A model generated the notes under the pieces. The model was not told the DNA's origin, searched no databases, and saw nothing but the letters and a program-made list of their open reading frames with translations. Of a stretch of 64,000 nucleotides of DNA, positions 59,821 to 62,719 are shown piece by piece. The DNA is from Sphingorhabdus sp. (GTDB taxonomy: Bacteria; Pseudomonadota; Alphaproteobacteria; Sphingomonadales; Sphingomonadaceae), in the NCBI GenBank assembly GCA_028279555.1, contig JANQNO010000005.1, positions 496,001 through 560,000 on the forward strand, read 5' to 3'. Every line of letters starts with the position of its first letter. The stretch's first letter is position 1. The position numbers were made by a program, and so were the translations under genes.

Positions 59821-60228
59821 TTATTCTGCAGCAGCCTCCGCCGGTTTTTCCGCCTCGGTTGTTTTGACGGCCTCGCGGCGTTCGGCAATACGCGCCTTCT
59901 TACCGGTCCGGCCACGCAGATAGTACAGTTTTGCGCGTCGCACATCACCCTTTCGAACGATGGTAATGCTGTCGACATTGGGCGAATAGAGCGGGAATAC
60001 ACGCTCGACGCCTTCGCCAAAGCTCATCTTGCGAACCGTGAAGTTGCTGCCCATGCCGCGATTGACACGCGCCAGGCAAACGCCTTCAAAATTCTGAATA
60101 CGTGTGCGCTGCCCCTCGACAACCTTCACGCCGACACGCACAGTGTCGCCTGCACGGAAATTCGGAATCTTTTTCTCCTTGGTCAGGTCGGCCATAGCCT
60201 CCCGCTCAAGTGTCTGGATGAGGTTCAT
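59821..60228 (-). CDS. rplS: 50S ribosomal protein L19
   Basis: A 135-residue ribosomal protein, with the standard L19 body ([20 protein letters not shown] and [20 protein letters not shown] then [18 protein letters not shown]) and an Ala/Glu-rich C-terminal tail of about 20 residues. L19 sits at the interface of the 50S and 30S subunits. It follows trmD with 24 bases between, in the usual rimM-trmD-rplS order. Confidence 0.97.
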
Positions 60229-60252
60229 GCCTCTTTTTCCTTCTTCTCTTCG

Positions 60253-61065
60253 CTACGCGTCAGAGGCAGGCTCATCCCGAGCGGCGACATACCGCTCCCA
60301 AAGGTCTGGCCTGCGTGACCGTGTATCTTCCTCTGCCCTTTGCTTGCGCCAGGCATCGATTTCCGCGTGATCCCCCGATCGTAGCACTTCAGGGATCGTG
60401 CGCCCTTCCCATTCCTGGGGCCGGGTATAATGCGGATATTCGAGCAATCCGGTTTCGAATGACTCGTCTTCCCCGCTTTGCGCCGCGCCCATTACGCCGG
60501 GAAGCAGCCGAATGCAAGCATCTAATAGCATCATCGCCGCAATTTCTCCGCCCGACAGGATGATGTCGCCGACTGAGACTTGCTCGATCTGCGGTCGCGC
60601 CTCGAAAAGCCGCTCGTCAAAACCTTCGAAACGACCGCATAGCAGGGTCACACCGGAGCCGGATGATATTTCGCGAACACGCGCCTGAGATATTGGTTTC
60701 CCGCGGGGCGTGAGAGCTAGGATGGGGACTGTACTAGAGACCGCCCGTGCTGAGCTTGTCGAAGTATGAGTGGTTTCGCCAGCTCGTCCTTCAACAGGCT
60801 CAGGACTAACGGTGATTTTTTGAAGCATCTGCTCTTCCGCAAAATCCACCGCCTTGCCCAAAATATCTGCACGCAGCACCATCCCGGCTCCGCCTCCAGC
60901 GGGCGTATCGTCGACGCTGCGATGCCTGTCTTCGGCAGAATCGCGAATGTTGATCGGATCACAAATCCACTTGCCCTCCTCCAGCGCCTTGCCCGCTAGC
61001 GAGGTGCCGAGCGGCCCGGGAAACATCTCGGGATAGAGGGTCAGGATTTGTGCATGGAAAGTCAC
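60253..61065 (-). CDS. trmD: tRNA (guanine-N1)-methyltransferase TrmD with an extra inserted segment
   Basis: TrmD makes m1G37 in tRNA. The 270-residue protein has the family start, [19 protein letters not shown], the trefoil-knot phrases [29 protein letters not shown] and [14 protein letters not shown], and the C-terminal [16 protein letters not shown]. Between the GGGAGM loop (57-62) and the TPRG of the knot (119-122) there are about 29 residues more than in E. coli TrmD (GGGPGM 55-60, SPQG 88-91). The extra part, [14 protein letters not shown] and [11 protein letters not shown], is encoded by a palindromic repeat described separately. The gene otherwise looks intact and should be essential. 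Confidence 0.95.
60742..60810. repeat. palindromic repeat element inside trmD
   Basis: Two 14-base arms, TGAGCTTGTCGAAG (60751-60764) and CTTCAACAGGCTCA (60789-60802), are inverted repeats with two mismatches around a 24-base centre. The word family CTTCGACAAGCTCAG is a common dispersed repeat of sphingomonads, normally intergenic. Here it is in frame inside trmD and adds about 29 codons. Confidence 0.75.
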
Positions 61066-61079
61066 AGCGAATTTCTCGG

Positions 61080-61610
61080 TTATTTCCGGAAGAAACTCCA
61101 GACTGCCTTCCAGAATTTTGCCTCCATTAGCATCAGTCGAACAATCAGTTCCGGCGCACCGCTTTTGCGTGCAATCTCCGCTGAATCTGTATGCGAACCA
61201 AACAGCATCTTCAGAATTGCAGCAAATGCAACCAGCTCGATAAAGATGATGATGCCCAGTGTGATGTTTCGCGCGGGCGCAAGCGACGGCACAATGTGCT
61301 GCAAATCTTCAGGTATGATCCAGGAGGCAGCCAATATACCCAAACAGACCAACCCCGCCATTCGAAGAGTAAGCTGTTGTGTCGATTGATTCCTGCGATA
61401 GCAGAAAAAATAGGCCCAGGGCAGGAACAGGCAAAGATCGAGGAGGATCACCTTTTCCGCAAGCCTTGCATTTTCGGCAAGAAGAACGGGTGCAACGAGG
61501 ACTTCTATAGCCAGGGCCACGGCCATGACGAACAGAAACCAGTGCTGTATCAAGATCTGCCTGACAGGGTGTATTGCCGCGTTCATATGCTCGCCATGCC
61601 ACAGTTTCAT
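61080..61610 (-). CDS. small membrane protein of unknown function
   Basis: A 176-residue protein whose ATG at 61610 overlaps the rimM stop (ATGA). It has about four predicted spans: [54 protein letters not shown] and [19 protein letters not shown]. The C-terminus is basic and cytoplasmic-looking. No family was recognised. It is inserted between rimM and trmD, which are usually adjacent. Confidence 0.65.
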
Positions 61611-62086
61611 GGATCAATAAACTCAGCTTGTACCAGAATTTTTTTTGGGTCCAATTCGGCTGCGTGCACGGGCACCATAAATCTCTTTTTGTCGGGCCGC
61701 TGGATTTCTAGGATGTCGCCTGCGCCGAAATTGTGCACGGCAATGCACTCACCGAGCTTCTCGCCGTTTGTTGATACGCAGAGCAAACCAATCAGATCGC
61801 TGTGATAATATTCGCCCTCCTCCAGCGGAGGTAAATCGGCGCGATCGATTGTCAGCTCCGTACCGCGCACGGCCTCAGCAGAATTGCGATCTAAGATTTC
61901 TTCGAAGCGCGCTATTGCGCCAGCTTTGTGCGCGCGCGCATTTTTCAGCGTCAATGCCCCGCCGTTGAATTTCCTGTATTTTTTTAGAGCTGCCAGATCC
62001 TCAGTGAACAGCTTCACCCGGACCTCACCGGTCACGCCATGCGCGCCGGTAATGGCGGCAAGCGTGACGGTGTTGTCCTTCGCCAA
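61607..62086 (-). CDS. rimM: ribosome maturation factor RimM
   Basis: A 159-residue factor for 16S rRNA processing and 30S head maturation that binds S19. The N-terminal beta-barrel reads ITGAHGVTGEVRVKLFTED; the PRC-type second half has LPPLEEGEYYHSDLIGLLC and later AGDILEIQRPDKKRFMVPV. Standard length. It follows rpsP by 3 bases and overlaps the membrane-protein gene by 4. Confidence 0.95.
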   Translation of the reverse strand: MAKDNTVTLAAITGAHGVTGEVRVKLFTEDLAALKKYRKFNGGALTLKNARAHKAGAIARFEEILDRNSAEAVRGTELTIDRADLPPLEEGEYYHSDLIGLLCVSTNGEKLGECIAVHNFGAGDILEIQRPDKKRFMVPVHAAELDPKKILVQAEFIDP

Positions 62087-62089
62087 GGG

Positions 62090-62719
62090 TTACCCCTCGG
62101 CTTTCTCGTCTTCGGTTTTCTTCTCGTCGCCAGAATCTTCTGATTTGGCGTCGTCAGCATCGGCGTCCTTGGATTCGTCTGCTTTGGCATCATCTGCCTT
62201 AGCCTCTTCGGCAGGCTTTTCTTCTTCAGCAGCTGCCTCTTCCTTGACCTCCTCAGCCGGGGCCTCGTCAGCTGCCGGTGCATCGGCTTCCGCTGCTGCG
62301 TCTTCAGCCGGTGTTTCTTCCTTGGGAGCCTCAGCTTCCACCTTGGTTTCATCCTCGGCTGCTTTCTTAGCTTCGTCTGCCTCTGCGGCTTTTGTAGCCT
62401 TTTCTTCAGCGCGCTCCTTGGCTTTCTCGCCAGGTTCAGCCTTTTGCGGGTTGTTGCGCGCTTCGCGCTCGCGAACGCCAGCAGCATCCAGGAAACGGGC
62501 GACACGATCCGAAGGCTGCGCACCCACGGATAGCCAGTGCTTGGCTCGGTCAACGTCGAGCTTCACGCGCTCGTCGCTGTCTTTTGCCAGCAGCGGATTA
62601 TAGCTGCCGATCCGTTCGATATATTTACCATCGCGCGGGCTGCGCTCATCGGCAACCACGATCCGGTAGTAGGGGCGCTTTTTCGAACCACCCCGTGAAA
62701 GACGCATAGCCAAAGCCAT
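62090..62719 (-). CDS. rpsP: 30S ribosomal protein S16 with long acidic Ala/Glu/Lys tail
   Basis: The S16 body is residues 1-85 ([35 protein letters not shown] and the later [20 protein letters not shown]). The protein then continues to 209 residues with a low-complexity tail of Ala, Glu, Lys, Asp and Pro, more than doubling the usual 80-90 residues. The tail has no stop-like or frame-shift sign and is preserved in frame. It lies between ffh and rimM. Confidence 0.93.

Follow-up and report, generated by a model that had tools for sequence, protein, structure and literature searches.

The window (the whole stretch of 64,000 nucleotides analysed here) carries a trmD gene whose coding sequence holds a palindromic repeat, and this locus raises the question of how a gene that is essential came to take up such an element, and why the element persists there. 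The observation itself, made in a first-pass annotation, is confirmed: the palindrome lies in frame within an open frame of 270 amino acids, whose product exceeds the NCBIfam cut-offs for TrmD (275.9 bits against NF000648, with a cut-off of 220, and 238.5 bits against TIGR00088, with a cut-off of 195) and has the knotted SPOUT fold. The genome of the window (G000) contains one convincing trmD locus, and a second, weak match falls at another copy of the same repeat, here called type A. Relatives of the window protein are found in Erythrobacter, Porphyrobacter, Novosphingobium, Sphingomonas and their kin. The gene belongs to an rpsP-rimM-trmD-rplS cluster, with the following features:

59821-60228, minus strand: rplS (ribosomal protein L19), downstream of trmD (Pfam PF01245)
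60253-61065, minus strand: trmD, 270 amino acids, GTG start (open reading frame list and NCBIfam)
60700-60711, minus strand: TPRG codons, residues 119-122, counterpart of the SPQG loop that covers S-adenosylmethionine
60724-60810, minus strand: predicted unstructured loop, residues 86-114, between helix 66-85 and strand 115-124 (AlphaFold2 model)
60740-60813, minus strand: type A palindromic repeat, 74 bp, in frame, a single hairpin with ends as in the other two-arm copies
60740-60764, minus strand: 3' arm of the repeat (RNA fold), including the core arm 60751-60764
60789-60813, minus strand: 5' arm of the repeat, first on the coding strand (RNA fold), including the core arm 60789-60802
60880-60897, minus strand: GGGAGM codons, residues 57-62, the glycine loop (conserved alignment columns)
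61607-62086, minus strand: rimM, upstream of trmD (Pfam PF01782)
62090-62719, minus strand: rpsP (ribosomal protein S16) with a long C-terminal tail (Pfam PF00886 at residues 9-70 of 209)

Two neighbouring features may be mentioned in passing. The tail that follows the S16 domain (62090-62719, minus strand) is nearly 140 residues long and rich in Ala, Glu, Lys and Asp. Between trmD and rimM (61080-61610, minus strand) lies an open frame of 176 amino acids with hydrophobic stretches, for which a Pfam search to an E-value of 0.001 gave no match.

The palindrome and the lengthened loop

The two inverted arms originally noticed (60751-60764 and 60789-60802, 14 nt each with two mismatches) are indeed present, and form the centre of a longer palindrome of 74 nt. 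This element (60740-60813) folds as RNA into one stem, with two arms of 25 nt round a middle of 24 nt and an energy of -36.2 kcal/mol (z -5.26), a fold that none of 200 dinucleotide shuffles equalled. By its coordinates it covers residues 85-109 of the 270-amino-acid frame, and its ends, ACCG and CGGT, are common to many other type A copies. A search of positions 60200-61200 gave no Rfam match up to an E-value of 1, and terminator-like sites within 60500-61100 numbered zero. As a side observation, the type A copies of this genome tend to have an A-rich stretch before and a T-rich stretch after the palindrome, like a two-way terminator; at the trmD copy, a T run is found on one side only.

The spacing from the GGGPGM loop to SPQG is 29 residues shorter in TrmD from E. 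coli, and the gain of about 29 residues first claimed on that basis agrees with the relatives. The segment from GGGAGM to PRG comprises 66 residues in the window and 36 in 27 of 30 same-genus loci (the window being one of the 30), a net gain of 30 residues over the siblings; the other same-genus exceptions are G006 (69 residues) and G027 (93). The solved TrmD structures show a matching gap, with query residues 76 to 113 facing about 5 residues, and they align on both sides of it. Among 142 distinct TrmD proteins, 83 have 33-37 residues between the GGGAGM loop and PRG and 59 have 54-124, numbers that cannot be read as a frequency because one of the relative searches used an insert-bearing query and so enriched inserts. 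The extra segment is thus present in only some relatives. A conserved TrmD extension is ruled out by the 83 proteins with the short spacing and by the difference in sequence among the inserts.

The rest of the protein is rigid in comparison. Three other motif spacings are constant, namely 49 residues in 138 of 138 proteins, 88-89 in 123 of 124 (104 in the remaining one) and 39 in 121 of 121, where each denominator counts those of the 142 proteins in which both motifs were found. The inserted loop is the only part of TrmD where large length changes were seen to recur.

In the AlphaFold2 model, the ten-residue means of pLDDT over residues 91-110 are 54 and 46, and residues 98-110 fall below 50. 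P120, R121 and G122 are invariant across the 36 rows of the TrmD alignment, and the insert lies about 10 residues upstream of this cover loop, so that the earlier placement of the repeat beside the knot holds in sequence. In space, we infer from the model that the loop lies away from S-adenosylmethionine, since it is found at the other end of the strand (115-124) that leads to TPRG. The SPQG motif is described as the cover loop over S-adenosylmethionine in TrmD, and the glycine loop of the Haemophilus influenzae (H. influenzae) enzyme touches the tRNA, with a contact at Gly59 (PMC5372744, in the parts consulted).

Repeat families at one TrmD loop

Type A is a repeat with many copies, as had been supposed. 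Searching the 2.75-Mb genome of the window for the motif CTGAGCYTGTYGAAG gives 92 exact matches, against none for the reversed-pattern control. In the stretches fetched round these matches, the arms form 60 clusters at up to two mismatches (single arms counted and trmD excluded), four of which were placed in named core genes, and in 42 clusters two arms stand in forward-reverse order within at most 75 nt. These 42 two-arm copies have on average 2.55 open frames, against 2.58 in simple shuffles, so type A has no special design for coding. The window has no further copy of types A to E by a simple pattern search. Across the class the distribution of type A is patchy, with matches in 24 of 143 genomes, most of them with few. 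The further in-frame copies within genes that had been anticipated do exist in this genome, in prmC, in ligA, in the linker of the E2 component of pyruvate dehydrogenase (pdhC) and in glyS, the last of which (L016, 1500-3015) carries three in-frame palindromes, one of type A and two C-like.

The description of the insert given at first was right in kind and understated in extent, for the same loop has taken several unrelated palindromes in roughly 10% of the sampled genomes of the family. In the family sample, 387 of 397 genomes have a TrmD match. An insert, where there is one, splits this match in the profile search; genomes with split or weak matches were therefore searched again, and the loop was read in most of them. 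Of the 387, 38 (about 10% of the 387, the window included) carry a whole insert at the loop; this count leaves out the loops of the genomes with split or weak matches G167, G185, G201, G218, G305, G353 and G404. In three draft genomes (G202, G394 and G418, at L197, L201 and L199), the contig stops within the trmD insert, as if the repeat had broken the assembly. An assembly artefact is nevertheless unlikely to account for the inserts, which are present in the single-contig genomes G070, G077, G132, G135 and G249. In the class sample, 378 of 387 genomes have a TrmD match, six genomes belonging to this family; eight genomes with two strong TrmD matches each (G590, G596, G669, G692, G698, G702, G714 and G757) were taken as duplicates, and the loop readings leave out the re-searched genomes G454, G536 and G621 as well as G778, whose match is split further on. 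Outside the family, long loops occur at the same place in G471 (L159) and G595 (L181), that of G595 being proline-rich and of low complexity, and two split candidates, G431 and G695, have normal loops.

The inserts differ in kind even among close relatives. Three kinds occur in the genus of the window: the window itself has type A, the insert of G006 is a type B built around TCTCGACTTCGCTCGACACG, and that of G027 is a type C around CCCCTCCCC..GGGGAGGGG. Type D is a G-rich bipartite palindrome whose peptides resemble LPGTGRG..GPPPRAGED, and type E, seen once, consists of GCTCCGGCGAAGGCCGGAGC and its complement. Automatic labelling of the 59 inserts gave A in 12, B in 4, C in 24, D in 15, E in 1, A with D in 2 and B with A in 1; by eye, one of those labelled C (L138) resembles type D instead. 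The type varies among species within a genus. Thus genus g1 has types A, B and C; genus g24 has C and D together with A, the latter by eye (L156); and genus g42 has A and D, plus C by eye in a broken contig. Some loops are chimeric, with types B and A in a row (L167) or A with D (L097, L152), one repeat lying in or beside another.

Types A to D are all genomic repeats. Type B was found at 4-17 places (up to two mismatches) in each of four genomes searched, and type D at 2-15 places in each of five, with reversed controls at zero for both. For type C, the exact pattern is common in both G027 and G151, occurs at 2 places in the genome of the window and is confined to the trmD copy in G397; in the other two of the six genomes searched, G250 and G077, this exact pattern is absent, and we take their inserts to be variants of C. 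Type E is a dissimilar fifth palindrome type and a candidate genomic repeat.

The frame is kept throughout. In each of the 37 whole inserts of the family besides that of the window, the two halves of TrmD stand in one open frame; this is the unbiased count, as a script tally of 66 of 66 lengths in multiples of three was true by construction, only open frames having been collected. Folding is likewise common to most inserts, with z below -2 (60 shuffles each) in 52 of 59, against 2 of 59 same-length downstream stretches of the same trmD genes; the remaining 7 inserts fold no better than z -2. The peptide, on the other hand, drifts neutrally in the pairs tested: for six pairs of close relatives sharing an insert, pN/pS is 0.93 in the inserts and 0.10 in the core, with the reservation that these pairs are all of types C or D, comprise 92 insert differences and are not all phylogenetically independent. 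Indels come in multiples of three in two of the closest pairs, L177/L178 (3, 3) and L178/L179 (9, 3, 3), and alignment gaps of 1 nt occur in sets in L068/L070 (1, 1) and L177/L179 (1, 6, 3, 1). An unconstrained peptide in a kept frame is as expected of a neutral loop that is translated, which is probably what the inserted segment is.

Survival, target choice, transfer and function

These observations are probably best accounted for by several repeat families that insert, of whose insertions only those in frame in one surface loop survive, there to drift neutrally. Several unrelated palindromic families would have spread in sphingomonad-type genomes, and a type A copy of about 74 bp would have inserted in frame into the trmD of the window, to be translated as a disordered loop. 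This loop, about 30 residues longer than that of the siblings, would join the helix after GGGAGM to the strand that enters the knot binding S-adenosylmethionine. As TrmD is single-copy here and essential, an insertion would be lost if it disrupted the frame, introduced a stop or landed in another part of trmD, and only in-frame, stop-free insertions in the loop would be kept; these would survive, drift neutrally as peptide and sometimes be overlaid or replaced by other repeats. Inserted TrmD would accordingly be expected to remain an active enzyme. If selection thus acts on where insertions survive, the hotspot is a survivorship map of a permissive site.

How exceptional the site is can be judged from other genes that carry the repeats. 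Among 119 genomes, TrmD has an insert in 17 (G081 gave no TrmD match, and the loop of G167 was left out) and the PrmC match is lengthened in 2, the insert of one of them, G060, being inferred from the length of the match. LigA, matched in 117 of the 119, was read at 19 loci with the longest or split matches and in the genome of the window (G159, which spans contigs, being left out), a selection that may miss shorter inserts. At a first site, near residues 170-180, eight genomes have repeat-like inserts of several types (L206, L238-L240, L244, L253, L255 and L256): two are of type A, four have a locus that contains the C pattern, and another two are recognized by peptide only (G065 and G116, one of the two B-like). 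A further site, at residues 560-612, has repeat-like inserts in about 4 of the 20 read. PrmC and LigA overstate the background, because they were picked for the inserts that the genome of the window has in them, and TrmD, though encoded by a short gene, still stands out over both in insert frequency. LigA also repeats the TrmD pattern, and so lends support to the explanation by a permissive site.

The same recurrence could reflect a choice of target, in which this stretch of trmD, by its DNA or its transcribed state, attracts the insertion machinery, so that biased insertion and not selection makes the hotspot. The many events at a single TrmD loop fit this explanation, as do the chimeric loops, which look as if repeats attracted repeats. 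However, the palindrome types at the site are dissimilar, and their junctions differ by several codons; the in-frame state of every whole case would require selection anyway; the long loops outside the family, not obviously made of these repeats, occupy the same place; and a comparable site exists in LigA, whose sequence there is unrelated. Target choice is therefore an unlikely source of the hotspot, and selection on survival the probable one.

A second possibility is that the insertions were few, and that a small number of ancient long-loop trmD alleles were inherited or moved among genera while the repeat inside them was replaced. In the genome of the window, in genera g24 and g89 and in some Novosphingobium, different repeat types follow shared extra helix residues, and the TrmD of the window groups with inserted TrmD of those other genera and not with its own genus, on a long branch (SH-aLRT 87-91). 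Such shared residues suggest a long-loop allele that was inherited or transferred and whose repeat was later replaced. As an account of the whole pattern, allele transfer is nonetheless improbable. Several clades, with different repeat types among them, have both filled and empty alleles whose cores are 90-93% identical in DNA (twelve rows with an insert, eight pairs aligned). The inserted rows are also scattered through the tree: parsimony on an insert-free tree requires at least 25 changes of presence and at least 39 of type, both figures being approximate since the tree search was quick and 53 of 138 inner branches are weak. Conversion between A and C, which have no obvious shared sequence, would be implausible as well. 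Survival of insertions in a permissive loop keeps its place as the probable explanation, with the proviso that some type changes, given the helix residues shared before different repeats, may come from replacement within, or transfer of, a long-loop allele and not from a new insertion.

A selected function would make the insertions favoured, the mRNA hairpin or the loop tuning the output of TrmD within the rpsP-rimM-trmD-rplS cluster, or else tuning the enzyme. The strong hairpins of most inserts and the high recurrence among the 119 genomes are in keeping with such a role; yet hairpins are expected anyway of inserts that are palindromes, in the pairs tested the insert peptides drift neutrally, the pattern is repeated in LigA and most genomes have no insert, which makes a function very unlikely. 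The variant in which palindromes are favoured at this point of trmD because TrmD output or activity is lowered or buffered by the hairpin or the loop, whichever family is at hand being recruited, is in our judgement very doubtful too, and the inserts are best explained without a function. It is hardly credible that ribosomes bypass the hairpin, or that it is removed in some other way, so that the insert stays out of the protein: hairpin inserts that ribosomes bypass exist in other systems, but bypassing would not need the single open frame that runs through every whole insert, and indels in two of the closest pairs are multiples of three, although other close pairs have paired gaps of 1 nt.

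The inserts amount to an insertion scan that nature has made of an essential enzyme, in which one TrmD loop accepts roughly 20-90 extra residues from several families. In-gene palindromes, usually told as a peculiarity of Rickettsia, recur in sphingomonad-type bacteria at landing loops in TrmD and LigA, and the old question of whether such inserts are neutral debris or raw material becomes testable. There are practical consequences as well. TrmD length outliers can resemble annotation errors, the contigs of three draft genomes stop inside the trmD insert, and, where TrmD is considered as a drug target, there is a risk of taking the loop for a conserved feature.

Comparison with known palindromic repeats

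Three kinds of small repeats known to enter genes offer themselves for comparison. The first are the Rickettsia palindromic elements (RPEs), dispersed stem-loop palindromes of 105-146 bp that are described as specific to Rickettsia, lie in frame in conserved genes and are apparently tolerated there (PMC2229807, in the parts consulted). Type A resembles them as a palindrome with a long stem-loop placed in frame in conserved genes, and differs in its size of 74 bp and its sphingomonad-type genome, a distinction drawn from the published description of RPEs. One site taken by several families is not described in the consulted parts of the RPE accounts. The same source mentions MITEs, small non-autonomous elements that contribute their open frames to host proteins, with sizes of about 103-168 bp for elements of this type (PMC2229807, in part). 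Type A is likewise a small repeat that lies in frame with its host gene; it has inverted ends and is smaller than the sizes given. No target-site duplication is apparent by eye beside the trmD copy; the search for a parent transposase covered Y1.

The third kind are the GTAG and CGTC REPs, found within genes in many species, although mostly outside genes and often as head-to-head pairs (Di Nocera, De Gregorio and Rocco 2013, PMC3733652, in the parts consulted). The initial remark that in-gene palindromes are known from Rickettsia therefore stands for RPEs, and not as a restriction to that genus. According to the consulted parts of the same paper, REPs lie in frame in genes encoding tRNA synthetase and tRNA pseudouridine synthase in two sphingomonad-type species, and in a DNA ligase gene that is not from those two, and the recB genes of two Xanthomonas species carry different REPs at about the same site; its authors suggest that flexible linkers or loops make intragenic REPs neutral (PMC3733652). 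Type A shares with these REPs that it is a short palindromic repeat found in frame in some conserved genes. We take the two sphingomonad-type species to be, by their full names, Erythrobacter litoralis and Sphingopyxis alaskensis.

The difference lies in the unit that folds. A REP unit of 20-40 bp forms a hairpin of its own with a stem of 5-13 bp (for CGTC, 8-9 bp and a loop of 4-5 nt; PMC3733652, in the parts consulted), whereas the halves of type A do not fold alone and the whole element makes one long hairpin. Folded as DNA, the halves of the trmD copy, of 27 nt each, reach -0.8 and -1.0 kcal/mol, energies that 159 and 41 of 200 shuffles match, respectively. GTAG REPs go together with a Y1 (RAYT) transposase. 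The family PF01797 has no match in the genome of the window and matches in 5 of 14 control genomes, and a Y1 enzyme was rejected as the mobiliser on this ground.

The four repeat-arm strings do not occur in the literature searched, and the literature matches listed include neither repeats in TrmD nor a site shared by several families, with the proviso that the supplementary list of PMC3733652 could hold a single TrmD case. The main text of that paper does not contain the word 'methyltransferase' (its supplementary gene list lying outside this statement), and its consulted parts describe no REP site that several families share in many genera. In-gene palindromes as such are already known; what seems to be new here is TrmD as an insertion site and the presence of several repeat families at one site. 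Type A works like both REPs and RPEs, and fits neither class, as its halves have no fold of their own and its size lies outside 105-146 bp.
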